Assembly (NCBI GenBank): GCA_021736135.1 | Contig: JAIPGO010000034.1 | Coordinates: 1 to 36,405 of the forward strand | Direction of reading: 5' to 3' | DNA length: 36,405 bases | From: Candidatus Cloacimonadota bacterium | GTDB lineage: Bacteria > Cloacimonadota > Cloacimonadia > Cloacimonadales > TCS61 | Shown here: positions 23,035-28,628 of the stretch, piece after piece | How the letters are laid out: each line of letters starts with the position of its first letter | Numbering within the stretch: position 1 is the stretch's first letter | Position numbers and translations under genes: made by a program | Notes under the pieces: generated by a model | Told to the model about the DNA's origin: nothing | What the model saw: the letters and a program-made list of their open reading frames with translations, nothing else | Database searches by the model: none

Positions 23035-24306
23035 TTATATTTTCCATTGTTTAAACTGATATAAATCCTCATCATTGAGGAGCACATCCATTAGCACTCC
23101 CTCATCTTTGTATTCTTTCTCCAGCACAACTCCCAGCTTAAAAAGATGGGATATAATTTTCTGCTCCTGATGTGGAACAAGTATCTTAACCACGTGTGCA
23201 ATGTTTAATTTCTGGTCAACAACTTCTCGTAAATTGTCCAGATTTATCTTTTCCGATGCTGATATAAACACCGCTTCGGGATATGTTTCTTTCACAGCTT
23301 CAGTCACCTCAGAGAAGAGCATATCAATCTTGTTAAATACCAGCAGAACCGGTATTTCGGCTGCCTTGATCTCTGCCAGCACTGTCTCTACATCTGCAAT
23401 ATGCTGCTCAAAATTTGCATCAGTAACATCTATCAAATGCAGAAGCAGGTCGGCATCTACCACTTCCTGCAATGTCGCCCGAAATGATGCTACCAGATGA
23501 TGCGGAAGTTGTGAAATGAAGCCCACTGTGTCAGATAATATCACATCACGCCCCTTACCCAGGTTCAATGCCGAGGACGTGGATTCCAGAGTCGCAAACA
23601 GCTTGTTTTCCACTAGTACTTTCCCATCTGTTAGCGCATTAAAAAGAGTTGATTTCCCCGCATTAGTATAACCCACTATGCATACTTTTTTGAAATGCGA
23701 AAACCGGTATTGCCGCTGTACTTCTTTCTGACTGGCTATTTTTTCCAGTTCCAGTTTTGCTTTACGCATTTTCAAACGCACGTAGCGCTTGTCCAGTTCC
23801 AGTTGCTTTTCGCCACTGCCACGGGATATTCCTCCCGTACTTGCAGTCCCTTTTTCCCTGTCCAGATGTGCCCAGAGATTACGTAGTCTCGGCAGTTCAT
23901 ATTCATAACGTGCCAGGTTTACCTGTATCCTCGCTTCACTGGAGCGCGCATGCTGTTTAAATATCTCCAATATCACTTCTGTTCTGTCCATGATGTCTTT
24001 ACTGGTTTTCTTGCTGATATTACGTATCTGCGACGGATGCAGGTCATTGTCGTAAATCAGCAGATCGTCTTCTGCCATCCCGGACACTACTTCCTCAATA
24101 AAGCCTTTTCCGGTATAAAGCGCTCTGTCTGGCCGGTCTCGTTTCTGCAGATTTATGCTTCCGGTTTCCAGCCCCATCGTCTGCACCAGTAATTTTAATT
24201 CCTGCAGCGATTTCAGTTTTGCATCCTCATCTTTAGGTGCGCAAATCCCTACCAGATGTGCCTTAGGTAATTTCTCCTCAACTTCTATCAATTCTTTCTG
24301 ACTCAT
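23035..24306 (-). CDS. hflX: HflX ribosome-associated GTPase
   Basis: The protein has 423 residues, normal for HflX. An N-terminal HflX domain (about 10-200) includes 'RPDRALYTGKGFIEEV', 'DNDLHPSQIRNI' and the glycine-rich 'GTASTGGISRGSGEKQLELDKR'. The GTPase domain has G1 'GYTNAGKS' (212-219), G3 'DTVGF' (259-263), G4 'NKID' (325-328) and G5 'SAS' (349-351). HflX binds the 50S E/P region and splits stalled 70S ribosomes; in mycobacteria and Listeria, HflX homologues give macrolide/lincosamide tolerance. The start at 24306 is chosen because it has a perfect AGGAGG ribosome-binding site. The frame stays open for 25 more codons upstream only because it runs into the heptamer array. It lies downstream of the ABC exporter pair and upstream of the aminopeptidase gene. 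Confidence 0.95.
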   Translation of the reverse strand: MSQKELIEVEEKLPKAHLVGICAPKDEDAKLKSLQELKLLVQTMGLETGSINLQKRDRPDRALYTGKGFIEEVVSGMAEDDLLIYDNDLHPSQIRNISKKTSKDIMDRTEVILEIFKQHARSSEARIQVNLARYEYELPRLRNLWAHLDREKGTASTGGISRGSGEKQLELDKRYVRLKMRKAKLELEKIASQKEVQRQYRFSHFKKVCIVGYTNAGKSTLFNALTDGKVLVENKLFATLESTSSALNLGKGRDVILSDTVGFISQLPHHLVASFRATLQEVVDADLLLHLIDVTDANFEQHIADVETVLAEIKAAEIPVLLVFNKIDMLFSEVTEAVKETYPEAVFISASEKINLDNLREVVDQKLNIAHVVKILVPHQEQKIISHLFKLGVVLEKEYKDEGVLMDVLLNDEDLYQFKQWKI

Positions 24307-24321
24307 AATGCCTCCTATTAT

Positions 24322-24432
24322 CCATCGTCCATCGTCCATCGTCCATCGTCTATCGTCCATCGTCCATCGTCCATCGTCCATCGTCCATCATCCATCATCC
24401 ATCGTCCATCATCCATCGTCCATCGTCCATCG
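24322..24432. repeat. Heptamer array (CCATCGT)~16 between ABC exporter and hflX
   Basis: This is 111 bp of nearly perfect 7-bp units; variants are CTATCGT and CCATCAT. On the transcribed (minus) strand the unit is ACGATGG. The perfect unit has no stop codon in any frame and encodes the same heptapeptide cycle in all three. It ends 15 bp before the hflX start codon, just upstream of its ribosome-binding site. A small GCGCC-GCA-GGCGC hairpin (24432-24444) lies next to it. It is not a CRISPR: units are far too short and have no spacers. Confidence 0.95.
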
Positions 24433-24456: not shown

Positions 24457-26274
24457 TTAAATCGCTTTATACATTTCTTCCATGAACTGGTTGCTGTAAA
24501 GCTGCCAGTAATAACCTTTTCTTATCATCAATTCCTCGTGATTTCCCATTTCGATCACTTTGCCTTTGCTGATCACCAGTATCCTGTCTGCTGACCTGAT
24601 CGTCGATAACCGGTGCGCCACGATGAAGCTTGTTCTTGCATGAAGTATCTGCTCAATTGCCCTTTGGATCATCTGCTCAGTTTCCGTATCTACTGATGAA
24701 GTAGCCTCATCAAGCACGAATATTGCAGGATTACCGATTATCGCTCTGGCGAATGAGATCAGTTGCTTTTGTCCAGAAGATAATCCTGCTCCACCTTCAC
24801 CCACTTCACTGTCATATCCCTTTTCCATTTCGCTGATGAAATTATGCGCATTTACCAGTTTCGCTGCCTGAATTATCTCGTCTTCTGTAGCCTTCAGTGC
24901 GCCATAACGGATATTGTCCCGTATCGTACCGCTGAATAGATGCGGAGTCTGGAGCACATAACCGATCTGGGACTGCAGCCATAAAAGCGGTCGCTCCCGG
25001 TAATCAATACCATCTATCAAAATGCTGCCGCTCTGCGGCTCATAAAACCGGCAGATCAGGTTCACTATCGTGCTCTTACCGGAACCGGTCTCCCCCACCA
25101 GCGCTATTTTCTCTCCGGCTTTGATGCTAAGACTGAAATTTTCCAGAACTTTTTCACCATCCTTATATTCAAAGCTCACATCCTCGAATTCTATGGCGCC
25201 GTGGATAGCCTTCAGACTTTCGCTATATTCGTAATTTTCAACCTGATACTTCTTAATTATTTCCGTATTATCGCAGATCTCCACTTCTTCATCCAGCAGC
25301 GAAAAGATGCGTTCCGCGGAAGCCTGGGCATTCTGCAGTTCCGCAAATATCCGCCCTATCTGATAGATCGGCTCCATCATAATGGAAATATAACTGATGA
25401 AAGCAGCCAGCGTGCCAAAGGTTACAGTTCCATGCAACACTCCGCTCCCGCCTTTCCAAAGTACAAGAGAAGTTCCTGTCATTCCCAGAACCAGCAGTAT
25501 CGGCAGAAATATTGCTGATACAACAGCAGCCCGCACCGATACCCGAAACATCCGGCTGGTCAGTTTCTGGAAATCATTAAGATTTTTATCTTCCAGCACT
25601 AATGTTTTCGTGGTTATGGCACCGGCAATTCCCTCACTGACTGCACCGGTGATGCGCGAATTGGTTTTTCGCACGTCACGGTAAGATTTCAGAATCAGTT
25701 TATGGAAATAAAACGTGACTACCGCCATGACCGGCACAATGGAAAGACTCAATAATGCCAGTCTCCAGTTGAGCAGCAGCATCGCTATGATATTACCGAT
25801 CAGCAGCACCGTTCCCCAAACCATGTCCACCAGTCCCCAGGATATGATCTCGCTTAACCGTCCCGTATCCGATGTCATGCGCGCCATTATCCAGCCCACA
25901 GGCGTCTTGTCAAAATAGCGGAATGCCAGATCCTGCAGTTTCTTGAATCCGTCCCGCCGTATCCGGTAACATAACCCTATCTCTATCTTGCCAGCCCATA
26001 CTATAAAAAAGTATATATTGAAACTCTGCCAGATGAATATACCCAAAAAACCAGCCACAAATAGCCCGAAGCCACCCGTCTTTCCCGGTATAATGTAATG
26101 ATCAATCGCCCAGCGACTGAAAAGCGGATAAATAATATCCACACCTGCCGTCATCATCATCAGAAACGCCAGCACCGCCATCAGTCGCCACATCGGCTTT
26201 AAATATGCCAATATCTTCTTAAAAGTAGCAGGATCAAACTGCTTATCATAATCATACTCTTCATATCCCTGCAT
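24457..26274 (-). CDS. ABC exporter half-transporter, MdlB-like (canonical catalytic site)
   Basis: The protein has 605 residues. Six-helix transmembrane domain (about 28-310), then the nucleotide-binding domain: Walker A 'GETGSGKST' (394-402), Q-loop 'VLQTPHLFSGT', signature 'LSSGQKQLISFARA' (498-511), Walker B 'IFVLDEATSSVD' with catalytic Glu523, and His554. The signature is LSSGQ rather than LSGGQ. In heterodimeric exporters this half contributes its signature to the degenerate site opposite the partner's Walker A/B. E. coli MdlB also has an altered signature. It is the second gene after the leader-controlled ABC gene, about 85 bp downstream, with GAGG before the ATG. It exports an unidentified compound, plausibly drugs or hydrophobic molecules. 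Confidence 0.93.
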   Translation of the reverse strand: MQGYEEYDYDKQFDPATFKKILAYLKPMWRLMAVLAFLMMMTAGVDIIYPLFSRWAIDHYIIPGKTGGFGLFVAGFLGIFIWQSFNIYFFIVWAGKIEIGLCYRIRRDGFKKLQDLAFRYFDKTPVGWIMARMTSDTGRLSEIISWGLVDMVWGTVLLIGNIIAMLLLNWRLALLSLSIVPVMAVVTFYFHKLILKSYRDVRKTNSRITGAVSEGIAGAITTKTLVLEDKNLNDFQKLTSRMFRVSVRAAVVSAIFLPILLVLGMTGTSLVLWKGGSGVLHGTVTFGTLAAFISYISIMMEPIYQIGRIFAELQNAQASAERIFSLLDEEVEICDNTEIIKKYQVENYEYSESLKAIHGAIEFEDVSFEYKDGEKVLENFSLSIKAGEKIALVGETGSGKSTIVNLICRFYEPQSGSILIDGIDYRERPLLWLQSQIGYVLQTPHLFSGTIRDNIRYGALKATEDEIIQAAKLVNAHNFISEMEKGYDSEVGEGGAGLSSGQKQLISFARAIIGNPAIFVLDEATSSVDTETEQMIQRAIEQILHARTSFIVAHRLSTIRSADRILVISKGKVIEMGNHEELMIRKGYYWQLYSNQFMEEMYKAI

Positions 26275-26358: not shown

Positions 26359-28161
26359 TTAACCGACCTCGGTTAAATCAAAACTACTCTGTATCTTCCA
26401 TATCCGCTGATAGATCCCCGGCTGCAAGATCAATTCCTGATGGGTGCCACTTTGAGTGATTTTCCCTTCTTCCAGAACGTATATCCGGTCTGCTTCCGAG
26501 ATCGTGGTCAGCCTGTGTGAAATAATGATCGTTGTCACCTGCTGCTGACGTTCCCGCAAACGCTCACGTATCCGCCTGTCGGTTTCCGTATCTACTGCCG
26601 AAAGCGAATCATCAAAGATCAGTATCGGACTTTCCTGCAGCAGTGTGCGAGCCATAGCGATCCGCTGTTTCTGTCCACCGCTTAAGGTCACGCCGCGTTC
26701 ACCGACCAGCGTCTCATAGCCTTTATCAAATTCATTGATCACTTCATGCACCGCTGCCTGCTCTGCTGCTTTCACGATTCCTTCCCGGGAAAATTCCCGC
26801 TCCCTTATACCGATGTTTTCCTCTATCGATCTGGAAAACAGGAATGGTTCCTGCAGTACGATGCCGATATTCCGGCGAATGTAGTGCTTATCCATATCTT
26901 TTAATTCTTTACCATCAATCAATATTGAGCCTTTCTGATATTCATATAACCGCGGCAGCAGATGCACAAGACTTGATTTCCCGGAACCCGTAGCTCCCAA
27001 AAAAGCCACTGTCTCTCCTGCCTTGATCTTCAGGCTTACGCCCTTCAGAACCGGTTTTTCTGCATCATAACCAAACCACACATCATTAAACTCAATATCT
27101 CCCTTCACCGGCTGTCCTTCTGCTGAGCCCAGGTCTTCCTCAGCCTCTTGCAATATTTCATCTATTCTGCCAATGGATACTACGCTTTTACTCACATCCA
27201 CCAGGATTCTGCCCAAGGAACGGAAGGGCCAGATCAGCATTCCGATATAAGAACTGAATGCCATCATCGTTCCCAGAGTTATCTTTCCCGTTGCCGCCAG
27301 CCAGGTGGCTATGGATATCACCAGCACCATCTGCATTCCGCATAAAAGGTCGGAAAATGACCAGAACATCGCCAGATGTTTCATCATCCGGTAAAGTTCA
27401 CGCGTATAACCGCCATTTCTTTCTTCAAATTTCCCGATCTCAAAATTCTGCGCTGCAAATGCCCGTACTACGCGCACTCCTGTTACATTTTCCTGAATCA
27501 CGCTGTGCATCTTGCTTTCCGCTTTTTCCACCTGCTCAAATACATTCCGTATGCGACGGTAGAATATAAATGAAAATGCCATTATAAATGGCATAAACAC
27601 CATTGACATCAAAGTAAGTTTCCAGCTCATCGGCAGCATAAAACTCATGGCAAAGGAAAACATAAAAACCGTTCTGCCTATTTCCACCAGTTGCATCGCC
27701 AGCATCCGGCGAACCGTCTCAATATCGGAGGTACTTCGCTGGATCAGGTCGCCCGTTTCCACTTTCTGGTGATAACTGAAAGGCAGCTTCTGAATATGAT
27801 CATATAACCGGTTCCTGATATTTTTCGCTATATTCTCGGAAGCACTGGCGCTCCACTTGCCCTTTAAGAACTGTGATAGCCCCTGCACAACCGCCAGAAT
27901 CACGAGTATCAATCCGCAGATCCAAAGATTAGCACTCAGATGCTCCCTGCCTCCCAGCCCATCAAAGATACCCTTGATCAAAGGATCAATCCAGGTCTTG
28001 GTTTCCAGCGCTGCTTTACCAATAATGTTATCAACCGTGATCCGCAAGACAAGAGGCCAGACGAAGTTTACCAGCGCTGCCACTGCCACTGCTATGATCG
28101 CAAATATGTATAAATGTCTCTCTCCCCGCATCAAGCTCCATAATCTTTTCAAATTCTTCAT
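26359..28161 (-). CDS. ABC exporter half-transporter, MdlA-like (degenerate Walker B)
   Basis: The protein has 600 residues. Transmembrane domain about 17-325; Walker A 'GATGSGKSS' (389-397), Q-loop 'VLQEPFLFSRS', intact signature 'LSGGQKQR' (493-500), Walker B 'ILIFDDSLSAVD' where Asp518 replaces the catalytic Glu, His549. The Asp-for-Glu change is the mark of the inactive half in heterodimeric exporters (TM287/288, BmrC/BmrD, MdlA/MdlB). It should pair with the next gene's product. The start at 28161 has GGAGG 10 bp upstream. The frame is open 43 codons further, to 28290, but that stretch is made of two terminators and is non-coding. Expression is probably governed by the leader at 28183-28379. 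Confidence 0.94.
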   Translation of the reverse strand: MKNLKRLWSLMRGERHLYIFAIIAVAVAALVNFVWPLVLRITVDNIIGKAALETKTWIDPLIKGIFDGLGGREHLSANLWICGLILVILAVVQGLSQFLKGKWSASASENIAKNIRNRLYDHIQKLPFSYHQKVETGDLIQRSTSDIETVRRMLAMQLVEIGRTVFMFSFAMSFMLPMSWKLTLMSMVFMPFIMAFSFIFYRRIRNVFEQVEKAESKMHSVIQENVTGVRVVRAFAAQNFEIGKFEERNGGYTRELYRMMKHLAMFWSFSDLLCGMQMVLVISIATWLAATGKITLGTMMAFSSYIGMLIWPFRSLGRILVDVSKSVVSIGRIDEILQEAEEDLGSAEGQPVKGDIEFNDVWFGYDAEKPVLKGVSLKIKAGETVAFLGATGSGKSSLVHLLPRLYEYQKGSILIDGKELKDMDKHYIRRNIGIVLQEPFLFSRSIEENIGIREREFSREGIVKAAEQAAVHEVINEFDKGYETLVGERGVTLSGGQKQRIAMARTLLQESPILIFDDSLSAVDTETDRRIRERLRERQQQVTTIIISHRLTTISEADRIYVLEEGKITQSGTHQELILQPGIYQRIWKIQSSFDLTEVG

Positions 28162-28182: not shown

Positions 28183-28219
28183 AAAAAATCCCGCGGACCT
28201 GAATTCCACGGGATTTTTT
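28183..28219 (-). terminator. Intrinsic terminator 2 of the ABC-operon leader (segments 5:6)
   Basis: On the minus strand ATCCCGTGGA (28214-28205) pairs with TCCGCGGGAT (28197-28188) around a 7-nt loop, with one G-U pair. Six T's (28188-28183) follow, and flanking A's can lengthen the stem. It ends about 8 nt before the GGAGG of the ABC gene, so it can only be regulatory. The A- and T-flanks make it workable on both strands. Confidence 0.88.
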
Positions 28220-28222
28220 GAT

Positions 28223-28273
28223 AAAAAAAGGGTGGAACCCAGGCGTTTTACTTCTGACGCTTCCGGTTCCACC
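28223..28273 (-). terminator. Intrinsic terminator 1 of the ABC-operon leader (segments 3:4)
   Basis: On the minus strand GGTGGAACC (28273-28265) pairs perfectly with GGTTCCACC (28239-28231). An inner GCGT/ACGC stem follows (28260-28257, 28246-28243), then seven T's (28229-28223). This is a strong rho-independent terminator located after a leader ORF and before the ABC gene. Confidence 0.88.
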
Positions 28274-28343
28274 AATATATTTTCTGCCAAGGGCAGCTAA
28301 TTATCAATAAATTACTTCTATTTAAAAAGCAAACCGGTTGCGT

Positions 28344-28379
28344 TTAGTTGTTACGCAATCTCACTGTAAAATTCATCAT
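28344..28379 (-). CDS. Leader peptide MMNFTVRLRNN with Arg-Leu-Arg motif
   Basis: An 11-codon ORF (ATG at 28379, TAA at 28346-28344) has an excellent ribosome-binding site, AAGGAG, at 28392-28387, 7 nt before the ATG. Codons 7-9 are Arg-Leu-Arg, the motif that defines one class of macrolide-arrest leader peptides (ErmDL type), where the drug-bound ribosome stops with Leu in the P site and Arg in the A site. Codons 8-9 are exactly segment 1 of the attenuator. The peptide itself probably has no function; its translation does. A second ATG directly follows the first. An amino-acid (Arg/Asn) attenuation peptide is the main alternative. Confidence 0.75.
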   Translation of the reverse strand: MMNFTVRLRNN

Positions 28380-28628
28380 GTTTATACTCCTTCAAATTTA
28401 TTTGGGGACAATTTCTTTTTCCCTTTCCCACCTGTCAATAGAAAAAAATTCCACGATATCCAAAGCGATTGCCGATTGGCTGAAAGTAAATCGGTGATTA
28501 CAGATTAATTCTTAAATTTGCTTAGTGTAATTTGTACATCTACGGCTATTTTTTTTGAATTCTGGATTTATTTTATATTGACAAGATTACACATAATTCC
28601 ACTTCCTATTATATATTAGGGGGAACTA
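28380..28628. other. Divergent spacer between the ABC leader and the RDD gene
   Basis: Apart from the leader ribosome-binding site and its candidate promoter, there is a CCGATT...AATCGG dyad near 28472-28493. AT-rich -10-like boxes (TATTAT/TATATT, 28607-28617) lie just before the AGGGGG ribosome-binding site of the RDD gene, without a good -35. I see no gene here. Confidence 0.45.
28410..28438 (-). promoter_or_regulatory. Candidate promoter of the ABC/hflX gene string
   Basis: A perfect TTGACA (28438-28433) is followed after 17 bp by GAAATT (28415-28410), a poor -10. It lies about 31 bp upstream of the leader ORF start, the right place for the leader transcript. The weak -10 keeps confidence low. 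Confidence 0.4.

Follow-up and report, generated by a model that had tools for sequence, protein, structure and literature searches.

Several described regulators resemble the leader analysed here. In erm(K) of Bacillus licheniformis, an MRLR leader peptide is followed by two adjacent terminators, according to PMC4335068, which cites Kwak et al. (1991), and the sequence Arg-Leu-Arg (RLR) is a known stall motif for macrolides and ketolides (PMC8298421). The attenuator rli80 of Listeria monocytogenes hflXr (lmo0762) carries RLR in a 14-amino-acid leader, and macrolide and lincosamide resistance can come from an HflX-type protein (PMC6310831). Here we examine a leader in a window of 36,405 nucleotides, which is contig 23 in a draft genome measuring 4.14 Mb. 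The nearest named relative found is a Candidatus Cloacimonadota genome, which places the source in the FCB phylum Cloacimonadota, in keeping with the FCB-type genome named in a preliminary description of this DNA. That description divided the leader into six RNA segments, numbered 1 to 6 from the 5' end, and proposed that a ribosome stalled on an RLR peptide would open two terminators in turn. We consider it likely that two linked intrinsic terminators in the window form part of a ribosome-mediated transcription attenuator, which most likely works in the manner of erm(K) but is not itself an erm attenuator.

As in erm(K) and erm(D), an Arg-Leu-Arg leader, present in the window and in the related leaders L009 and L010, precedes two intrinsic terminators, each with an alternative pairing. 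The terminators are about 100 nt apart in erm(K)/erm(D), whereas those of the window are directly adjacent, and the pairing of segments 4 and 5 (4:5) that would link them has about 7 pairs there but 12 pairs and an additional U-tract:A-tract stem here. An rRNA methylase is controlled there, in contrast to the ABC exporter pair and HflX that follow here, and a Firmicute is set against Cloacimonadota; the likeness is one of architecture. With rli80 the window shares the RLR leader, the anti-anti-terminator/anti-terminator/terminator logic and an HflX-type target, but a single terminator is described there with hflXr directly 3', whereas HflX comes third in the window, after two exporter genes (PMC6310831). 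In Bacillus subtilis bmrB-bmrCD, cited in the preliminary description as a single-terminator attenuator in agreement with PMC4191407, a heterodimeric ABC exporter is likewise under ribosome-mediated transcription attenuation, although its one terminator lies within the bmrB leader ORF and the two of the window lie past the stop codon. In streptococcal mef(E)/mel and msrD, genes for macrolide efflux and protection are likewise attenuated through leader peptides, by two attenuators described as a "double-lock" (PMC4335068, PMC10314930); these are, however, separate attenuators with their own leader peptides, rather than one pairing chain. Our literature search found no paper linking Cloacimonadota with attenuators.

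An erm(D)-class leader (L091), which we found on a B. licheniformis plasmid by means of its leader peptide, folded with both terminators, a 2:3 duplex of -11.1 kcal/mol and a 4:5 duplex (TCTGCCT:AGGCAGA) of -11.9 kcal/mol; the same linked chain is possible in this leader. In their 1991 abstract on erm(K), Kwak and colleagues reportedly describe two conformations that exclude each other, and truncated RNAs roughly 210 and 333 nt long. The erm(D)-type leaders of Priestia and Metabacillus have a 4:5 pairing similar to that of L091, and none similar was found in the Planococcus leader. We also observed that the erm(D)-type leader peptide on plasmids of Bacillus, Priestia, Metabacillus and Planococcus (L091-L094) precedes differing genes (an Erm methylase; an RNA methyltransferase with an msr-type ABC-F; an MFS transporter; a macrolide phosphotransferase), and it looks like a swappable attenuator cassette. 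The linked two-terminator chain, which the preliminary description thought would be new, is therefore not new as a principle, given the complementarity in L091 and the leader and terminators of erm(K) (PMC4335068). Its presence in Cloacimonadota is new, as are the adjacency of the terminators together with a 4:5 latch of 12 pairs, the operon of exporter and HflX genes, and a scaffold on which leader peptides have been exchanged.

Leader, terminators and operon of the window

All features described below are on the minus strand, where a Shine-Dalgarno sequence, an 11-codon ORF, segment 2, a small hairpin, terminator 1 (T1), terminator 2 (T2) and the exporter start at 28161 follow one another. 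The leader ORF, read from the sequence with the putative translation MMNFTVRLRNN* (28379-28344), is preceded by GAAGGAG (28393-28387) and overlaps segment 1 (TTGCGT, 28358-28353), which holds its Leu-Arg codons. Segment 2 (ACGCAACCGGTT, 28343-28332), the partner of either 1 or 3, begins directly past the leader stop codon. Segment 3 (AACCGGAAGCGT, 28268-28257) lies within the 5' arm of T1 and segment 4 (CCTGGGTTCCAC, 28243-28232) in its 3' arm, while segment 5 (GTGGAATTCAGG, 28209-28198) takes in the 5' arm and loop of T2 and segment 6 (CCGCGGGA, 28196-28189) forms its 3' arm. Folding predicts T1 (28223..28273, -19.8 kcal/mol) as a hairpin, GGTGGAACCGG...CCTGGGTTCCACC (28273-28231), with a U7 tract (28229-28223), and T2 (28183..28219), whose helix also covaries, as an A6 tract (28219-28214), the hairpin TCCCGTGG...CCGCGGGA (28213-28189) and a U6 tract (28188-28183). 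The two are directly adjacent, and both are located 3' of the leader ORF stop codon. A further hairpin between segments 2 and 3 (GCTGCCCTTGGCAG, 28284..28297), with similar ones in L009 and L010, was identified by sequence only and is speculatively a candidate polymerase pause hairpin.

The 1:2 pairing has 6 pairs, 2:3 has 10 of 12 (AA stands opposite AA in mid-helix, giving a 2x2 internal loop), and 4:5 has 12 of 12, two of them G-U. Compared with shuffled sequences, the minimum free energy of the whole leader had a z of -4.05 (0/200 shuffles as low), the 4:5 stretch folded alone a z of -3.56 (0.5% of shuffles as low), and the 2:3 duplex a z of -2.97 (p = 0.007). Direct reading and folding thus confirmed the leader ORF, tandem terminators and exporter operon that the preliminary description had placed at 28379-28183, and every pairing in its mutually exclusive chain (1:2 / 2:3 / 3:4 / 4:5 / 5:6) exists. 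A simple consensus terminator scan of the window found neither terminator, because its loop and stem limits were strict, and a scan of the window with the Rfam 15 covariance models gave no match to any family at gathering score.

Downstream of the leader lies a heterodimeric ABC exporter pair, after which comes an HflX GTPase. Half 1 of the exporter (600 aa, 26359..28161; PF00664 and PF00005; relatives P-gp, Sav1866 and MsbA) has the Shine-Dalgarno sequence GGAGG (28176-28172), and half 2 (605 aa) occupies 24457..26274; both are half-transporters of the P-glycoprotein/MsbA superfamily, and their genes lie side by side in relatives wherever the data reach. The HflX gene (23035..24381; TIGR03156, 385 bits against a cut-off of 216.75) is the second copy in the genome, with a paralogue on contig C26. 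HflX is found behind the exporter genes in at least seven related genomes (G024, G026, G003, G028, G018, G019 and G037), and this position suggests an operon that responds to ribosome-targeting antibiotics. A candidate -35 element, TTGACA (28433..28438), is proposed on sequence grounds; most of the related leaders also have TTGAC(A/T) 5' of their ORF, and no clear -10 element was seen in the sequence near the window's candidate.

Related leaders and covariation of the pairings

We found no other genome of the source genus, but exporter orthologues were present in 24 of 40 genomes of the family and 43 of 107 of the order, and 26 leaders from four families of this one order were compared. Among the upstream regions of the orthologues, three groups with tandem terminators were distinguished. 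Group A comprises the RLR leaders, namely that of the window, L009 (MINFTGRLRNN) and L010 (MNNFTGRLRNN). The 19 leaders of group B encode peptides of 11-15 residues, mostly with Arg-x-Pro-x-Gly (e.g., MINIFKNRVPQGTSA), and their segment 1 (ACAGG) sits just past the stop codon. In group C (L034, L035, L036 and L049, from families f5, f8 and f9), where leader ORF and terminators were found again, longer ORFs contain segment 2; whether L049 has a second terminator is doubtful. A short ORF with a Shine-Dalgarno sequence is present in the window and in nearly all relatives, with a conserved peptide, and the RLR leader put forward in the preliminary description holds for three leaders only, since in the others either an Arg-x-Pro-x-Gly peptide or a longer ORF is found. 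No genome has more than one match to the conserved T1 pattern, and 15 of the 16 matches are upstream of this exporter, the 16th being near a contig start.

The peptides also bear on whether the leader might be an amino-acid attenuator that senses shortage of Arg or Leu rather than a drug. Although Leu and Arg codons do make up segment 1, there are only three such codons, other peptides (Arg-x-Pro-x-Gly) take their place in most relatives, and the operon encodes an exporter and HflX, not biosynthesis; on these grounds we rejected this explanation, which we regard as very unlikely.

Leaders in family f2, including that of the distant named relative L032, are of another type, and no tandem terminators were seen in them. 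In L032, L037, L039, L040, L042 and L043 a distinct conserved leader ORF, starting MRQ, MRK or MRH, lies behind ACAGGAGGTAA or a similar sequence, and a conserved CAGACCCGTT stands ahead of the exporter start in the f2 orthologues; judged from their sequences, these regions, which have no terminators, possibly represent another kind of leader control. Four leaders of group B (L013, L015, L026 and L051) have a hairpin within the leader ORF (GTACC/GGTAC) with changes on both sides, as well as crossing repeats (GCCTATA..GGCTGA..TATAGGC..TCAGCC), located between segments 2 and 3, which could form a pseudoknot or a further switch, and in L011, L012, L018 and L030 extra small ORFs with Shine-Dalgarno sequences are located between terminator 2 and the exporter.

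Covariation was evaluated in an alignment of the 22 leaders of groups A and B. The 2:3 pairing, present in all 26 leaders with a mean z of -2.5, was 98.2% paired in the alignment, with both-sided compensatory changes in 6 of 8 pairs, and none of 500 shuffles reached it on any of five measures, a count that is not a probability because the alignment rows are related. When its partner was slid by one column as a control, pairing was at most 61%. The competing 3:4 helix was solid across eight outer pairs, so that an anti-terminator (2:3) exclusive with an intrinsic terminator (3:4) has been kept in evolution, and 5:6 was 91.7% paired, with double changes in 7 of 11 pairs and 33 both-sided cells. 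Together with an apical stem between U tract and A tract, 4:5 was 81.8% paired and had three pairs changed on both sides; its covariation score, matched by 1 of 500 shuffles of the same related rows, was modest and weaker than that of 2:3, and its mean z across leaders when folded alone was -2.4. The 1:2 pairing was 88.9% paired in group B, with both-sided changes in three pairs, and within group A TTGCGT:ACGCAA is replaced in L009 by TTGCGA:TCGCAA, a compensatory change that keeps Arg by a synonymous codon. The preliminary description had set covariation in relatives beforehand as the test on which its switch could fail; we found it to be strong for 2:3 and weaker for 4:5, with the leader ORF kept, an outcome that favours the switch.

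Tandem terminators are common in bacteria, and this commonness speaks for a plain pair of back-to-back terminators shielding the exporter against transcription from upstream, next to a small ORF arisen by chance and with no switch. Such terminators would nevertheless silence the gene they directly precede, and they leave no role for 2:3, which has compensatory changes, or for the Shine-Dalgarno sequence, short ORF and conserved peptide of nearly all leaders. We rejected the plain double terminator for the conserved leader ORF and peptide and the changes in 2:3, and consider it extremely unlikely.

Coupling of the two terminators

Should 4:5 be of importance, segment 5 would be expected to follow segment 4 as the leaders diverge. 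In 15 leaders, the mean energy of a leader's own 4:5 duplex was -11.2 kcal/mol, compared with -7.9 (sd 0.65) for permuted partners, and none of 20,000 permutations was as low. In eight divergent leaders, for which the boundaries of segments 4 and 5 were set by hand in families f5, f8 and f9 (group C), the true 4:5 pairing was the best of 40,320 permutations, and the true 2:3 pairing was among the best two of 40,320. Truncated transcripts of the window were also folded. With nucleotides 1-36 blocked, as by a ribosome on RLR, and segment 5 emerged, 2:3 stood at 0.90 and 4:5 at 0.99, while 3:4 stood at 0.87 when the ribosome was placed at the stop codon. Among the 26 leaders, 14 had an expected number of 4:5 pairs of about two or more, along with 2:3, in stalled-state folds; no 4:5 coupling was seen in the folds of the RTPQG-like subgroup (L011, L014, L017, L021, L027 and L031) or of L020 and L030, and in leaders of this kind T2 would need another release. 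The domino step of the preliminary description is thus supported by the permutation tests and the window folds, and was not seen in the folds of these leaders.

A fold with segment 1 blocked, which had been suggested as a check, was borne out in that 2:3 and 4:5 rise together, but not for the stage before segment 5 is made, when 3:4 wins. At equilibrium, with segment 1 blocked and T1 complete, 3:4 reached 0.88-0.98, and antitermination at T1 must therefore be kinetic; escape from T1 would rest on 2:3 forming before 3:4.

The leaders that lack coupling raise the possibility that only one terminator is regulated, with 2:3 switching T1, T2 acting as a separate leaky lock or being relieved otherwise, and 4:5 arising as a by-product of like 5' arms. 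The 5' arms of T1 and T2 are indeed alike (GTGGAA/GTGGAA, GTGGGA/GTGGGA, CCACG/CCACG), and the RTPQG-like subgroup, together with L020 and L030, has a 4:5 that is weak or not coupled. However, the T2 arms track the T1 arms over divergent families while the T2 stems otherwise differ, 4:5 of group A extends across the T2 loop (AATTCAGG), a stretch that T2 could do without, and a T2 left unrelieved would block the operon. We regard regulation of T1 alone as unlikely, and most likely the linked switch works as first proposed, with a kinetic first step.

Proposed mechanism and its meaning

From the pairings and the operon content we infer an order of events for the linked attenuator. When no inducer is present, the ribosome would reach the stop codon and cover segment 2, 1:2 would form upon its release, 3 would pair with 4, and transcription would end at T1, with T2 (5:6) serving as a second lock for polymerases that read through T1. 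An inhibitor would stall the ribosome on Arg-Leu-Arg, so that segment 1 would be inside the ribosome, 2 could pair with 3, and 4 would be left free. Segment 5, as it emerges, would then zip onto 4, aided by pairing between the T1 U tract and the A tract that precedes T2, and 4:5 would both block T2 and hold 4 off 3, allowing transcription of the exporter pair and HflX. By analogy, the RLR motif is suggestive of drug-dependent stalling, and for the window a response to a macrolide-type drug is what we infer. In most relatives, a second type of sensor, the Arg-x-Pro-x-Gly leader with segment 1 just past the stop codon, would drive the same scaffold. It is possible, though on balance we doubt it, that the element is order-wide, with 4:5 as a latch that holds the first switch by placing the T1 U tract and 3' arm onto the 5' side of T2, and with stall peptides (RLR, Arg-x-Pro-x-Gly or longer ORFs) swapped on one scaffold.

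If the model is correct, leader-peptide attenuation that senses antibiotics and works through a two-terminator latch would enter a little-studied FCB phylum, and an exporter and a GTPase of the ribosome-splitting type would be tied to a single ribosome-sensing switch. With one scaffold and differing peptides, the leaders make up a natural series for testing the rules that govern drug-specific stalling and linked antitermination. The logic shared between Bacillus erm(K) and this leader suggests that a two-terminator chain may be a general route to very low background expression.
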